From Nanobdellota archaeon (GTDB lineage: Archaea > Nanobdellota > Nanobdellia > SCGC-AAA011-G17 > PNOQ01): a DNA stretch of 43,658 nucleotides. Both the position numbers and the translations under genes were made by a program. This document shows positions 1,168 through 19,247 of this stretch, in pieces. The notes below the pieces were generated by a model. It ran no database searches and was not told the origin of the DNA. It saw nothing but the letters and a program-made list of their open reading frames with translations. Each line of letters begins with the position of its first letter. Position 1 is the stretch's first letter. The stretch lies in assembly GCA_018829185.1 (NCBI GenBank), contig JAHJUI010000006.1, positions 1 through 43,658 of the forward strand. The letters run 5' to 3'.

Positions 1168-1962
1168 ATGAACAAAAGAGGTCAAGTTACTATATTTGTA
1201 ATTCTAGGAATAGTCATATTATTTCTGATTTTTTTGGTTACAGTTTTTAAAGATACTTTATTAGAAAGTAAATTTGGGACCCAAACAAATGATGATTTAG
1301 TTAGTACACAAGTTGAATCAATAAGGGAACATGTTGAAGGATGCATTGAAGAACAAGGTTATGAAGTTATTTCTGCTTTGGGTAAACAAGGTGGAAGTTT
1401 GAATCCTGGCTTGAGTAAATATTGGTATGGAGATGATATTTCTTATTTATGTTATACTGAACAATATGGTCCTTGTTATAATATGGTTCCATTTTTAACG
1501 AGTCATATGGAAGATGAAATTACAGATTACGTTTCTGAAAATTTAATTAATTGTGTTAACTTTTCTAGTTGGGAAGCTAGAGGCTATGAGGTTTCAGCTG
1601 GCAGTTATAGAGTTGAAACAACAATTGGCGACGAGAATGTAATTATTTTAGTAGATTATCCAATTACAATTTCTAGGGGAGATTCTGTTTTAGAAGAGAA
1701 TAGGTTTAGTAAGAATTTTGATGTTCCTTTAGGAAAATTAGCCAGAGTCGCTGATATGATTGTTAATAAAGAAATTAATAATCAATTGGGTCAAGTTTTT
1801 ACAATACCGATTATTACCATATTTCATGGGGAAATTGAAATAAAGAGAGATACACATGGCCCCTATGATGAAGTTTATACTTTAGGTTTAAGGGATGATA
1901 TATTTAGTATGGCTGGAGAAAAATACATATTCCAGTTTGCTGTTAGGGGGTGGGTAACTTGA
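1168..1962 (+). CDS. Prepilin-like membrane-anchored surface protein (MNKRGQ type)
   Basis: 264 residues, family not recognised by name. The start MNKRGQVTIFVILGIVIL is a short basic head, a G-Q junction and one hydrophobic helix (residues 8-25). This resembles class III signal peptides/prepilins of archaea, where cleavage falls before the Q, but the usual Glu at mature +5 is absent. The remaining ~235 residues are polar with scattered Cys (CIEEQGYE, YLCY, GPCYN, LINC) and should lie outside the cell. It is the first gene of the locus and overlaps the next by four bases (TTGA). Similar KGQ-headed proteins follow at 5812, 6929, 7726 and 9586. The role as a pilus-like or membrane-complex subunit is inferred. 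Confidence 0.75.
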   Translation: MNKRGQVTIFVILGIVILFLIFLVTVFKDTLLESKFGTQTNDDLVSTQVESIREHVEGCIEEQGYEVISALGKQGGSLNPGLSKYWYGDDISYLCYTEQYGPCYNMVPFLTSHMEDEITDYVSENLINCVNFSSWEARGYEVSAGSYRVETTIGDENVIILVDYPITISRGDSVLEENRFSKNFDVPLGKLARVADMIVNKEINNQLGQVFTIPIITIFHGEIEIKRDTHGPYDEVYTLGLRDDIFSMAGEKYIFQFAVRGWVT

Positions 1963-4900
1963 GATTACTTAAAGAAAAAGCAACGTTCATGATTCTAGTT
2001 TTGATAGTTGGTTTTATTTCATTTTCATTTTCATTACAAGGAGTCTCTGCTGAGAATAGAGTTTGTTGTGAAAAAACTAAGGAAAATTCGGACTATAACG
2101 GTGCTAGTTGCATTTTTACGACACAAGATAATTGCGATCCTAGCGGAGCAATTGAGAATACCATTTGTGAAGATACTACAATGTGCAGTCCGGGGTGTTG
2201 TATCAAAGAGGATGAGTGTGTAGCAATGGTTCTTAAAGGAACTTGTTTAGCGATTGAGGGGGCAGTATGGAAAAATAGTGAAAATTGTGCTGCAGATGTT
2301 GTTCCTCAATGTCAAGAAGGTTGTTGTATGTTAAGTGCAACAAATGCAGTTTTTACAACGCAGGCTAAATGTAGAGATTTAGTTGAGCCTTATACTAATC
2401 TTAATTTACAAGAGGTTTTTGATGTTGATATTCAAACAGAAGTTCAATGTATTTTGAAAGCAAGAGGGCAAGAACAAGGATGTTGTTTGACTCCAGATAA
2501 ATGTAGTTTTACTATAAGAGCAAATTGTCCAGAAGGAGTTGAGTTTAAACCAGATACAATTTGTAGTTATTCCCCTCTTGGATGTGAGTGTACTGAAAAA
2601 GCTAAAACAGGATGTAGGGATGGATTTGAAGAAGTTTATTGGTTTGATAGTTGTGGAAATCCAGAAAATATTTATGGTGCTATTTATAGAGGGGATGGAA
2701 AAGTTGTAAATAAAGAAGAAATTTGTATTGTTCCTGATTCTGATGAGAATAATAATGCTGGAAGTGTTAGTTGTGGAAACTGTGATTATTCTTATAGTAG
2801 TATATGTGTTGAAGCAGATGATAATTTTTTAAGTGCTGTTAAAAATAGTAATTTACCGGAAAATGTAAAACCTAAATTATTGGCTGTGTGTTCTGATTTG
2901 AAATGTTATCATACTGAGGAAAATCCAAATATGGCTTGGATGGATGGCCGGACAAGGGAAAATGGAGAAAGTTGGTGCGAATATGAAGGGGCTGTTGGAA
3001 ATGGATTAGATTTGGTTGGGAGCAGGCATATATTACATCAATGTATTAATGGTAAAGAAATTGTAACTGCTTGTCAAGAGAAAAGAAAAGAAATTTGTGT
3101 TCAAGGGGAAATTCCAGCTGAATTTCCTGAAATAGGGGGACAAACTTCTGCCATTTGTAAACCTAACTTTTGGGCTTCTTGTTTAACTGCTAATGATCAG
3201 AGTGGAAATTGTAATTTAGATGAATACAGGGTGGATGGTAGTGATTTAACTTTATGTGGTGCAGAATGCGATGTTTTTTTGGAAAATGATGAGGATAAAT
3301 CTAGTGATATATATCATTTTGGTTATCCTAATGGAAATGTTAATTACCTTAAGGTGCCAGGGATTGATTCTGAATTTAGAGAAGATAGGAAAGATGATTG
3401 GATTGCTTGTTGTGAAAAGCAGTTATGTAGAAAAGAAGCTTGCGGTTCAGATTTGATTAATACTGGTTGTTATTGGAATAGTTTTTTAGCAAGTTGTTTA
3501 CCTGCTACACCAATTGGAGGATTTGGAGTTGACGATACTTCTTTGGGGCTTTCTTCTAAAGAAATTTGTGATATAGGAGATATTTCTTGTAGTGAAGTTT
3601 GGGTTAAAACCGGGTATGGAAGTCCTTGGAAGTGTGTTGAGAATTGTGGGTGTCATGATAAAATTTATGGTACACAAGCAAGTAATTTTTGTAGAAGTTT
3701 AGGAGATTGTGGGGCTTATTATAATGTTGTTGGATCCCCTTCCTCTGAAAAATCTTTTAAGGTTACAGATGATGCTCCAAAGAAAAGAAAATCTGGTTTT
3801 TGGGGTGAGACAGAAACATTTGGAATTCCTTATTCTGGAATGGGATATGATTTAATTTCTTTTACAACCCTTAAAAATGTTGATAAACCTTTGAATGGGA
3901 GTATATTATTATTAACAAACATCATGGAAATTTATGGAGCTAGTATTGATCCAAATTCAGATATGTTTGATTCTCCAGATATATGGATGGAAAATATAGG
4001 CTGGATTGCAACTGGTGTAATTGGGATTGCAGCTGTGGCGGGCGTATGGGGGCATCAATTAGCAGCCCGTATTATTTTTGGTACGGGACTAGGCGCTATG
4101 ACTGGTGGATCTCTTGGAGCGGTGGGATTTGATCTTGGACGGGCACTTGTACCGAAAGCAATTTTGGCAAATACCATGGTGATTTTAAATACTATTGCTT
4201 GGGTAGTTGGGGCAATAATTCTTTTAATTACTTTGGTGAAATGGATATTATCTCTAGGATATGAAGATGCGAAGATTACATATAATTTTAATTGCAATCC
4301 GTGGGTTCCCCCCTTGGGGGGAGGAGATTGTGAGCAATGTGATGATTTTGAATTTTGTGATGAATATAAATGTAAGAGTTTAGGGGCACATTGTGAATTA
4401 AAAAATATTGGAAGTGCTGGTTTAGAAACTTGCGTTGGATTGGAGAATGATATGATTCCTCCAATAATTAATCCACATGTAATTGCACCAATTACTGAAA
4501 ATGATATTATTAAAACCCCTATAAGTCAAGGATTAAATGGGGGCTATGAGTTTAAACAAACTTTTGATTCTTTTTCAGAAGTGGAGATAGGAATTGATAC
4601 ATGGGACGAGGAACCAGGTGGAAGTTTGAGCCCTGAACCGGCAATTTGCAAGATTAGTAGTAAGCCTACTTTGTCTTATGATGAAATGCTTTATTATTTT
4701 GATGGAATTGGGGAAGATGGGGCAGCATTTATCAAAAGAGAACATATAATGACAATTCCTTATTTAGCTAATGGGCTTGAATTAGATCCAGATGAAGATA
4801 GGATTGTTTTAGAAGGTGGAAAAACAAATACATTCTATGTGAAATGTATAAATACAAATGGTATAGCAAACATAAAAGATTATTTTATAAAAATAAAAGT

Positions 4901-5810
4901 AAATAATGAACCAGATGGAACTGCGCCAGTTATTGAGGAATATAGTTTAAGAAATGGAGCTATTTTACCTTCTGGAATAAATTCAACTACTTTAATTTTA
5001 TATACAGATGAATTAACAAATGGTCCTGGCAACTTGACCCATGTAGGGGGATGTAGGTGGAGCAATGAACCAACTACAAGTTATACCAATATGGTTAACG
5101 ATTTTGTTTGTTCAGAAGATAGGGTAGACGGGGAACATTATTCTTGTGGGGGGATTTTAAGTGGGTTACAAAATGATGCAGATAATATATTTTACTTTAA
5201 ATGTAGAGATGTGGCTGGAAATATTAATCAACATCCACAACCATTAAATGGATTCCATTTATATCTTAGCGAAGGATTGGATATAACTGCTTATAGTCCA
5301 TTAAATCAACCACCAGTATATGCTAATGGTGCTACTTTAGAAGTGCAGACTTCTGGAGGAGCTAATGGAGATGGAACAGCTACTTGTTATTATAGTTTAA
5401 GTAGGTTCTTTGATATCAACAGCATAGAGTTTGAAAATACTGGGGGGAGTATACATGCACAAGAGTTTGCAACTTTAGCTTCAGGAGAACATACTTATTA
5501 TGCATGGTGCGAAGATTCTGCAGGTAATGGTGCTACTCAAGAGATTACATTTACTTTATTGAGAGATGAAGATTCACCTGAGTTAGATAGAATTTATGTT
5601 GATGGTACAAGATTATACATACAATTGAATGAGGCTGCAGAATGTGAATATTCCTTAGACGGTCCATTTTCTTTTGGAGTTGAAGGAAATTCTCAAATGG
5701 AACCAAGCGGAGAATTAACTCACTTCTGTCAATTAGCTGAGAATGGAGTTTATAACATTGTTTGCCAAGATAGTTGGGAGAACCAAGTTTCTTTTGTAGT
5801 ATACCCATAA
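1959..5810 (+). CDS. Large Cys-rich exported surface protein
   Basis: About 1283 residues from a TTG at 1959. That start overlaps the upstream TGA as TTGA and has GGGGGTGGG at 1946-1954; an in-frame GTG at 1950 lies inside this SD and is less likely. A Sec-type signal (hydrophobic stretch ending near VSAEN) is followed by several modules, each opening with CC or GCC and closing with a spaced Cys: CCEKT, GCCIKEDEC, GCCMLS, GCCLTPDKC. A long Cys-rich middle comes next. Hydrophobic segments around residues 680-790 (GVIGIAAVAGVWG; NTIAWVVGAIILLITLV) could anchor it. The C-terminal 400 residues carry Ig-like stretches (TAPVIEEYSLRNG, CRDVAGN, CEDSAGNG). It probably forms a disulfide-rich extracellular structure with the small anchored proteins around it. 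Function unknown. Confidence 0.8.
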   Translation: MRLLKEKATFMILVLIVGFISFSFSLQGVSAENRVCCEKTKENSDYNGASCIFTTQDNCDPSGAIENTICEDTTMCSPGCCIKEDECVAMVLKGTCLAIEGAVWKNSENCAADVVPQCQEGCCMLSATNAVFTTQAKCRDLVEPYTNLNLQEVFDVDIQTEVQCILKARGQEQGCCLTPDKCSFTIRANCPEGVEFKPDTICSYSPLGCECTEKAKTGCRDGFEEVYWFDSCGNPENIYGAIYRGDGKVVNKEEICIVPDSDENNNAGSVSCGNCDYSYSSICVEADDNFLSAVKNSNLPENVKPKLLAVCSDLKCYHTEENPNMAWMDGRTRENGESWCEYEGAVGNGLDLVGSRHILHQCINGKEIVTACQEKRKEICVQGEIPAEFPEIGGQTSAICKPNFWASCLTANDQSGNCNLDEYRVDGSDLTLCGAECDVFLENDEDKSSDIYHFGYPNGNVNYLKVPGIDSEFREDRKDDWIACCEKQLCRKEACGSDLINTGCYWNSFLASCLPATPIGGFGVDDTSLGLSSKEICDIGDISCSEVWVKTGYGSPWKCVENCGCHDKIYGTQASNFCRSLGDCGAYYNVVGSPSSEKSFKVTDDAPKKRKSGFWGETETFGIPYSGMGYDLISFTTLKNVDKPLNGSILLLTNIMEIYGASIDPNSDMFDSPDIWMENIGWIATGVIGIAAVAGVWGHQLAARIIFGTGLGAMTGGSLGAVGFDLGRALVPKAILANTMVILNTIAWVVGAIILLITLVKWILSLGYEDAKITYNFNCNPWVPPLGGGDCEQCDDFEFCDEYKCKSLGAHCELKNIGSAGLETCVGLENDMIPPIINPHVIAPITENDIIKTPISQGLNGGYEFKQTFDSFSEVEIGIDTWDEEPGGSLSPEPAICKISSKPTLSYDEMLYYFDGIGEDGAAFIKREHIMTIPYLANGLELDPDEDRIVLEGGKTNTFYVKCINTNGIANIKDYFIKIKVNNEPDGTAPVIEEYSLRNGAILPSGINSTTLILYTDELTNGPGNLTHVGGCRWSNEPTTSYTNMVNDFVCSEDRVDGEHYSCGGILSGLQNDADNIFYFKCRDVAGNINQHPQPLNGFHLYLSEGLDITAYSPLNQPPVYANGATLEVQTSGGANGDGTATCYYSLSRFFDINSIEFENTGGSIHAQEFATLASGEHTYYAWCEDSAGNGATQEITFTLLRDEDSPELDRIYVDGTRLYIQLNEAAECEYSLDGPFSFGVEGNSQMEPSGELTHFCQLAENGVYNIVCQDSWENQVSFVVYP

Positions 5811-17585: not shown

Positions 17586-17594
17586 TTTAAATAC
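17586..17594 (+). promoter_or_regulatory. TATA box of the tRNA gene
   Basis: TTTAAATAC, preceded by an A-rich BRE-like stretch, lies about 24 bp before the first base of the tRNA at 17618. That is standard archaeal spacing. Confidence 0.6.
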
Positions 17595-17617: not shown

Positions 17618-17743
17618 GCCGAGATCGCATAACCTGGTATTGCGCGGGCCTTGAGAGCCCGTTTCCTTACGGATATCTGGGTTCAAACATGTGTGCTGGT
17701 TGCTTATAGCTTCCAACGTGCGTTGAAAGTCCCAGTCTCGGCG
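17618..17743 (+). tRNA. tRNA-Ser (anticodon UGA) with T-loop intron
   Basis: The acceptor stem GCCGAGA (17618-17624) pairs with TCTCGGC (17736-17742), with discriminator G at 17743. The D-stem is three pairs (GCA/TGC), usual for class II tRNAs, with AACCTGGTA in the loop. The anticodon stem CGGGC (17645-17649)/GCCCG (17657-17661) frames loop CTTGAGA, so the anticodon is TGA (17652-17654), reading UCN serine. The long variable arm is at 17662-17676. The T-stem CTGGG (17677-17681)/CCCAG (17731-17735) is split by a 42-nt intron. Spliced, the T-loop is the canonical TTCAAAT. CCA is not encoded and a T-rich stretch follows. The mature length is 84 nt. Confidence 0.92.
17688..17729 (+). other. 42-nt tRNA intron at T-loop position 59/60 with BHB motif
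   Basis: The junctions fit a textbook bulge-helix-bulge. The T-stem is the outer helix. The 4-bp central helix is TTCA (17682-17685) with TGAA (17724-17727). The 3-nt bulges are AAC (5') and AGT (3'), cut after their second base. The inner helix ATGTGTG with CGTGCGT (17717-17723) uses A-U, G-C and G-U pairs. Removal restores TTCAAAT. The splicing endonuclease itself is not in the window. Confidence 0.82.
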
Positions 17744-17771: not shown

Positions 17772-19247
17772 TTAAATAATTTTTATTGTATTTTTTACAA
17801 AAGATTTAGCATACTTCAATTTTTCCTTACTTTCTGAATAAATTGTGAATAATAATTGATTTCTTTTAACTTTTTGCCTTAATTTTACTTCAAGGTAAAG
17901 TCCAGATTCTTTGCTTTCTGGACAACCAGCTACTCTTGCTATTTTTGCTATTTTTTTATTGTCAATAAAATGAATTTTACCAGATCTAGTTGCTTTTACT
18001 TTATATTTGTACTTACCAACTTTAAGATCTTCTGGTTTAACTTTTGGATTTCCACCTTGTGCTTTTATTATCTCTCTGAATTTGGCATTTGCAAGGCCTA
18101 AATTGAGTATTTCTTTCACTTTCTTTTTTGCAAACTTAATCCCCACCATCTTTAGGATTAAAGTAGACATGTAAATTATTTTTTTCTCTAAGTCTTTTGG
18201 AGCTTTTTTATCTCTCATTAATATATAAAGTACATCTCTTGCTTCTAAATTTGGTCCAACTCCATTCCCAATTGGTTGGGAACCATCAGATAACATTACT
18301 TTTACTTTCATTCCTAAGGATTTTCCAAGGAATTTAAATTTTCTTTTTAGGGTCTTACCTTCTTTTAAGGTAGTTGTTTTGGCAGTTTTACCAATTGGAA
18401 TATCTATTAAGACATGAGTTGAATTTACTGCTGCTTTTTTAGCTAGAATTGAAGATAATAACATTCCTTCTGGATCTAATCTTAAGGGGTGTCTGACTTT
18501 TATTAATTTGTCATCAGCACTTGCTAGATTCATTGCCCCCCCCCAAACAATGCAGGCATTTGTTTTTTTAACTATTTCTTCTACTTTTCTTGCTGGGAAG
18601 CAAACATCACATAAGGTTTCCATTACATCTGCAGTTCCAGCTGCTGACGTAATTGCCCTGGAAGAGGTTTTAGGCATTGTTAATCCAGCTGCAGCAACAA
18701 TTGGAACGATTAACATAGTAGTTCTGTTGTTAGGGAGGCCCCCTGTTGAGTGTTTATCTACTATTATTTTGTTTTTTAATCTTAATTTTGTACCATTTTT
18801 TATTATAGCTTTTGTTAAGTATTCTGTTTCTTTATCTGTAAAACCACCTTTATAAGAAGCAGATACGAAATAAGTTAATTCTATTTCTGTAAGTTCGTTT
18901 TCTACTACGTCTTTTATTATTTCATCTATTTCACTTTTTTTAAGTTCTTTTCCATCTAGTTTCTTTTTTATGAATTCTACAGAACGAGGGGTTTCAGCTA
19001 TTTTTACTTTTAGTTTTTCTCCATTCTTAAAAGGAAATTTTTCTAGAGTTTCTTTTAGTAATCCAATATGACCGTTCTTTATTTCTTTGTCGGTTATATC
19101 TACTGCAACGATAATTTTATGCTTTTTACCTTTGATCTCTATTCTATCTAATGGGTTTAAATCTAAGAGGGCTGCATCTTTTTCGTTTAATAATGCAATA
19201 AGGGGTCCACCTGTTGAAATGTCAATTTTCTTAGCTTTTAAAAACAT
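17772..19247 (-). CDS. deoA: AMP phosphorylase
   Basis: 491 residues. It converts AMP (also CMP, UMP) plus phosphate to the free base and ribose-1,5-bisphosphate, the first step of the archaeal nucleotide salvage route ending at RuBisCO. It has an N-terminal ~85-residue extension found in AMP phosphorylases but not in thymidine phosphorylases. The core follows: VDKHSTGGLPNNRTTM (phosphate loop), KTSSRAITSAAGTADVMETL, the GGAMNLASADDKLI region, and DGSQPIGNGVGPNLEARDVL. The length and motifs are complete. The ATG at 19247 overlaps the upstream permease gene by 17 bases. A run of nine G codes for WGGA. The other two enzymes of the route lie 2-4 kb upstream. Confidence 0.95.
   Translation of the reverse strand: MFLKAKKIDISTGGPLIALLNEKDAALLDLNPLDRIEIKGKKHKIIVAVDITDKEIKNGHIGLLKETLEKFPFKNGEKLKVKIAETPRSVEFIKKKLDGKELKKSEIDEIIKDVVENELTEIELTYFVSASYKGGFTDKETEYLTKAIIKNGTKLRLKNKIIVDKHSTGGLPNNRTTMLIVPIVAAAGLTMPKTSSRAITSAAGTADVMETLCDVCFPARKVEEIVKKTNACIVWGGAMNLASADDKLIKVRHPLRLDPEGMLLSSILAKKAAVNSTHVLIDIPIGKTAKTTTLKEGKTLKRKFKFLGKSLGMKVKVMLSDGSQPIGNGVGPNLEARDVLYILMRDKKAPKDLEKKIIYMSTLILKMVGIKFAKKKVKEILNLGLANAKFREIIKAQGGNPKVKPEDLKVGKYKYKVKATRSGKIHFIDNKKIAKIARVAGCPESKESGLYLEVKLRQKVKRNQLLFTIYSESKEKLKYAKSFVKNTIKII

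Follow-up and report, generated by a model that had tools for sequence, protein, structure and literature searches.

The window, a 43,658-nucleotide stretch of contig JAHJUI010000006.1 from a Nanobdellota archaeon, harbors a tRNA-Ser(UGA) gene (17618..17743, + strand) whose T-loop is interrupted between positions 59 and 60 by a 42-nt BHB intron (17688..17729, +), as located by base-by-base reading, ARAGORN and folding. The gene is of the type II cloverleaf form and consists of a 5′ exon with positions 1-59 (17618..17687, +; 100% match to positions 1-70 of the spliced-tRNA query) and a 3′ exon with positions 60-73 (17730..17743, +), the latter delimited by the ARAGORN splicing test and a pair check. 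Base-by-base checking showed complete pairing of the acceptor (7/7), D- (3/3), anticodon (5/5) and T-stems (5/5), with the anticodon UGA, discriminator base G73 at 17743 and no encoded CCA. The 5′ part is nearly identical to that of the paralogous tRNA-Ser(GCT) (L015), and the T-arm obtained by splicing is the same as that of the intronless paralogue Ser(GCT). A TATA-box-like archaeal element, TTTAAATA (17586..17593, +), was recognized by reading approximately 25-32 bp upstream of the gene and may represent its putative archaeal TATA-box.

ARAGORN calls no tRNA in the window, nor in the unspliced 17618-17743 gene, and with the Rfam tRNA model the unspliced gene scores 20.8 bits, short of the 29 required by the cut-off. 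Excision of 17688-17729 yields an 84-nt tRNA with the T-loop TTCAAAT, which ARAGORN calls as tRNA-Ser(tga). The initial annotation, which had described a tRNA-Ser(UGA) gene split at 59/60 by a strict 3-4-3 BHB, proved correct to the base. Its expectation that splicing restores a canonical T-loop was borne out, with ARAGORN calling the tRNA only after removal of the intron, and its suspicion that ordinary finders miss the gene held true for ARAGORN and Rfam.

The 5′ strand of the T-stem (17677..17681, +) forms the outer helix of the BHB motif, with 5/5 pairs to 17731-17735 (CTGGG/CCCAG), and the T-loop bases TTCA of positions 54-57 (17682..17685, +) form a 4-bp central helix with TGAA at 17724-17727 (4/4 pairs). 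The 5′ bulge AAC (17686..17688, +), assigned by strict archaeal BHB geometry and folding, contains the predicted cut 17687^17688, and the 3′ bulge AGT (17728..17730, +), assigned by the pair check and folding, contains the predicted cut 17729^17730. The intron thereby shows the archaeal BHB arrangement of two 3-nt bulges on opposite strands with a 4-bp helix between them. A 7-bp inner helix (17689..17695 with 17717-17723, +) includes four G-U pairs, and within the intron family this helix is preserved through changes to both strands, as seen when the window's genome (G000) is compared with the homologues of G006 and G003. In the window copy the strict register folds at -44.9 kcal/mol, compared to -45.6 kcal/mol for the free minimum free energy (MFE) structure, which is 0.7 kcal/mol lower and has a shifted 5′ bulge. 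The strict register is the MFE fold for the T-arm with the near-identical tRNA-Ser(GGA) intron of G000 and, among homologues from sister genera, for that of G001; in that of G006/G003 the MFE is strict on the 5′ side and the 3′ bulge is likewise 3 nt long. The intron is as such of an ordinary kind with a strict motif. A group I intron was considered for 17688-17729 and rejected, the window being without an Rfam match and 42 nt being too short, and neither a C nor a D box of a C/D guide could be read within the intron.

The genome of the window (0.83 Mb in 27 contigs, 96% complete) belongs to the DPANN archaea. The initial annotation had rightly taken it to be DPANN-like: the named archaeal neighbours of its proteins are Nanoarchaeota and Pacearchaeota and its EndA is nearest to that of Nanoarchaeum equitans, placing it outside the order Thermoproteales. 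Adjoining the tRNA is an AMP phosphorylase-like gene (17772-19247, -), whose best matches among named genomes include Peregrinibacteria (bacteria) as well as Nanoarchaeota. This suggests a possible gene transfer, and because the best matches include Peregrinibacteria the gene is a poor taxonomic marker. A further open frame of 1286 aa (1950-5810, +), located near PCNA, is without a Pfam match.

A single Ser(UGA) gene, that at 17618-17743, was detected in G000, the other Ser genes found being those for GCT, CGA and GGA. This inventory combines Rfam matches and the pattern search described below and is incomplete, with Tyr and Leu(UAA), for example, not identified; multi-intron tRNA genes of this genome are likely still hidden. 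An intact second tRNA-Ser(UGA), to which the initial annotation had pointed as the observation that would count against it, was searched for by means of Rfam matches and the spliced-tRNA sequence and was not found in the 96%-complete genome. The open reading frames of the window itself contain 162 UCA codons. Intronless Ser(TGA) genes are present in G002, G005 and G008 of the same family, with a T-arm (CTGGGTTCAAATCCCAG) identical to that of the spliced window tRNA. An empty site therefore exists nearby, reflecting either gain of the intron in G000 or its loss in these relatives.

Distribution of T-loop introns

Three 59/60 introns are present in G000, in Ser(UGA), in Ser(GGA) on contig C4 and in Ala(UGC) on contig C13. 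The intron of tRNA-Ser(GGA) (G000:C4:12054-12106; L111) differs from that of the window at 2/42 nt (about 94% identity), and this gene apparently contains one or two further introns in the anticodon arm. The tRNA-Ala(UGC) gene (G000:C13:12376-12470; L186), which apparently adjoins rRNA genes, carries a 28-nt 59/60 intron at C13:12426 with the central helix TTCG/CGAA. ARAGORN anticodons of multi-intron genes were not trusted: its calls of Thr(CGT) on C4 of G000 and Val(TAC) for L181 were rejected, both being tRNA-Ser(GGA) by their acceptor stem, D-arm and T-arm. Apparent D-loop introns can also be observed in G000, in tRNA-Thr(UGU) (C26:3268-3380; L036) and in a tRNA-Met (C20:52290-52400; L037) that is possibly the initiator.

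A pattern with a TTCR/YGAA central helix, in which position 57 could be A or G and, independently of this, the facing base C or T, was run against 103 genomes from the order of G000. It matched at about 110 places, against about 23 for a reversed control, and 54 of the 103 genomes contained at least one match. When spliced at 59/60, 84 of the 107 distinct matches were called as tRNAs by ARAGORN, compared to four unspliced. With the 3′ site displaced by 3 nt, the count fell to 25 or 11; displacement by 1-2 nt had a smaller effect, presumably because ARAGORN accepts T-loops of unusual size. In a sample of the phylum the pattern was found in 232/371 genomes, some with over ten matches, and among 20 matches sampled from the class's other families, 17 could be spliced to tRNAs. 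As only strict TTCR/YGAA helices are taken by this search, relaxed motifs may also exist. T-loop introns, which had been described at the outset as known mainly from Thermoproteota, are thus not confined to that phylum but are common in the Nanoarchaeota sample. They form a class-wide population of which the window intron is one member, a result that goes beyond the initial annotation.

The base at position 57 and the intron base facing it form A-T in 62, G-C in 19, G-T in two and A-C in one of the 84 spliced tRNAs. Among pairs of similar introns whose host tRNAs differ at position 57, pairing is kept in 23/23 (not independent events), in 20 of them through a change from A-T to G-C. By this comparison of sequences, the central helix of the 59/60 introns is real.

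Introns shared between tRNA genes

Homologues of the window intron are found in G001, G003 and G006, including one in a Gly tRNA of G006 with 75% identity, although within G000 near-copies occur in Ser isoacceptors only. Identical 41-nt introns interrupt tRNA-Gly(CCC) and tRNA-Ser(GGA) of G006 and Ser(GCT) of G003. Introns identical or almost identical to one another are also shared by unrelated tRNAs in G039, G021 and G048, and in G092 by two tRNAs of type II. In total, 100 of 4095 intron pairs share at least 70% identity, where about eight would be expected from shuffled introns (120/61425). Exon identity in intron pairs that cross isotypes mostly ends at or within the T-stem, and the intron core is repeated in the D-loop intron of the same gene over 30 nt in L135 (G048) and 28 nt in L137 (G021).

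Near-identical introns in unrelated isotypes, together with the switching of the base that faces position 57, argue that the introns move. Such sharing might rather result from duplication of tRNA genes and vertical inheritance. Both the window's intron and the copy with 94% identity to it lie in paralogous tRNA-Ser genes with a common acceptor stem and T-arm, so that this pair alone could reflect duplication, and tandem Asp-Lys pairs could convert one another. As a general account we nevertheless consider duplication unlikely, given the identical introns of Gly(CCC) and Ser(GGA) in G006 and of unrelated isotypes in G039, G021 and G048, the limit of exon identity at or inside the T-stem and the cores shared by D-loop and T-loop introns of one gene.

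We propose tentatively, and with somewhat less confidence than doubt, a mobile class of T-loop BHB introns in Nanoarchaeota, which would land in the near-universal T-arm box GGTTCRAA^TCC and spread in α4-only cells, either by a reversal of EndA/RtcB splicing at the RNA level, with the product then copied into DNA, or by DNA conversion via that box. If so, a diversity of intron positions would need no relaxed enzyme.

Introns at two positions of a single tRNA gene have 28-30 identical nt in common in L135 (G048), L137 (G021) and L168 (G018). Across the order, many genomes have introns in which a hairpin core, AAACTTTT..AAAAGTTT.AATCAAAA, recurs.

Splicing enzymes and proposed pathway

The G000 genome encodes one EndA (PF01974/PF02778) of about 177 aa, a single unit with N- and C-terminal endonuclease domains, along with an RtcB ligase. 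The closest matches of this EndA are the N. equitans α subunit (3iey_A) and the α4 enzyme of M. jannaschii (1A79), and its Tyr, His and Lys triad aligns with that of 1A79. Within the order, an EndA was matched in 95 of the 102 genomes searched, and exactly one in 94 of these 95, the exception being a draft genome with 6% contamination. Eight intron-rich genomes of other families likewise contain one EndA each, one of these genomes being a single contig with 100% completeness. In an alignment of 45 EndA proteins, gathered with a motif expression that partly presupposes the Tyr and Lys, none showed a loop insertion when compared with the G000 protein, and the His is kept in all 45. Neither a β subunit gene nor a three-unit fused EndA was found with PF01974 in the G000 draft or its relatives. 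One short α-type EndA, without a β or ε subunit, implies an α4 enzyme, and we infer that the G000 protein acts as such a homotetramer. This points away from the ε2 or heterotetramer forms at which the initial annotation had hinted.

An endonuclease of relaxed specificity, either a heterotetramer or an ε2 enzyme, could have been missed, as G000 is a 27-contig draft in which a β subunit may lie in a gap or be too diverged for PF01974. Non-canonical intron positions are associated with such endonucleases (PMC4090602; PMC4033280), and N. equitans possesses a heterotetramer. We judge this improbable in view of the single PF01974/PF02778 gene in G000, the single match in 94/95 genomes of the order and in the eight intron-rich genomes of other families and the absence of the loop insertion; moreover, a strict BHB does not require relaxed specificity.

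The interpretation that we hold with considerable confidence, on the strength of sequence comparison, is that the gene detected is a tRNA-Ser(UGA) with an EndA-type 59/60 BHB intron, which would be cut out by an α4 enzyme, with RtcB joining the exons, and which belongs to a mobile T-loop population. In the folded pre-tRNA-Ser(UGA), its own T-stem would serve as the outer helix and the T-loop UUCA would pair with UGAA of the intron, such that the two 3-nt bulges expose both scissile bonds. The single-gene α-type EndA, as an α4 homotetramer, would then cut after 17687 and 17729, and RtcB would ligate the exons to give the T-loop UUCAAAU. An α4 enzyme would suffice at this non-canonical position because the motif remains strict. 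Unrelated tRNAs would receive intron copies at their near-invariant GGTTCRAA^TCC box, where the only match required would be that of position 57 with the intron base opposite. That the gene is instead dead or dying, its T-loop broken by the insertion and UCA codons read by another tRNA, would accord with the failure of tRNA finders to call it, but is highly improbable given that no other Ser(UGA) was found in the 96%-complete genome with its 162 UCA codons in the window, that the stems are perfect and the BHB is preserved through changes on both sides and that the same arrangement occurs in dozens of tRNAs.

The 59/60 junction is a listed non-canonical site of archaeal introns (PMC4090602; Marck and Grosjean 2003; Sugahara 2008), and the known site, 3-4-3 motif, short intron and RtcB/EndA pathway are all shared with archaeal BHB tRNA introns (PMC4090602). 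According to the literature, however, α4 and α2 enzymes are strict to BHB motifs at the canonical 37/38 position and non-canonical introns go with heterotetramers (PMC4090602), and α4 is stated to cut canonical motifs only (PMC4033280). The lineage described here differs from the known rich sources, Crenarchaeota and Nanoarchaeota with a heterotetramer, in having a single α gene and in that the T-loop position is common to much of a DPANN class. Like the transposed introns of the Thermoproteales type, near-identical introns occur in differing tRNA isotypes and positions, but in another phylum, with an α-only endonuclease and with a strict central helix that follows position 57. N. equitans and Nst1 belong to the same phylum, Nanoarchaeota, and the best EndA match is the N. 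equitans α subunit. Nst1 has only two intron-containing tRNAs and its EndA β gene was not found (Podar 2013, PMC3655853); a β gene was not detected in G000 either. Whereas both introns of Nst1 are common to N. equitans, those observed here are many and lie at 59/60 and apparently in D-loops (PMC3655853). ARMAN-2, with its ε2 enzyme, is also a DPANN lineage with non-canonical tRNA introns, but ε2 comprises three units in one protein and has a specific loop that serves relaxed motifs, in contrast to the one unit of about 177 aa found here (PMC12397907, PMC6379350). The gains of tRNAscan-SE 2.0 in non-canonical introns concern mainly Crenarchaeota and Thaumarchaeota (PMC8450103). No paper describing T-loop introns across DPANN was found in a literature search that mostly excluded subscription papers and databases.

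The kind and position of the intron were therefore already known, and what appears to be new is the scale: T-loop introns that transpose and extend across a class, in a lineage with an apparent α4 enzyme. The many strict-motif T-loop introns of an apparently α-only phylum suggest that strictness of the motif is separable from intron position, and the idea of coevolution between EndA and introns becomes testable. They may further represent a second, independent lineage of transposed tRNA introns, one whose target box is clear and in which a covarying base is built in. Where tRNA finders do not model 59/60 introns, missing tRNAs and wrong anticodons would be reported in DPANN genomes.

An additional observation concerns the ligase. 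Two RtcB frames of about 950-1010 aa (G009:C1:498996-501707 and G011:C53:1891-4692) show a profile match that is split near position 50-66, which suggests the presence of a putative intein in the RtcB of G009 and G011.
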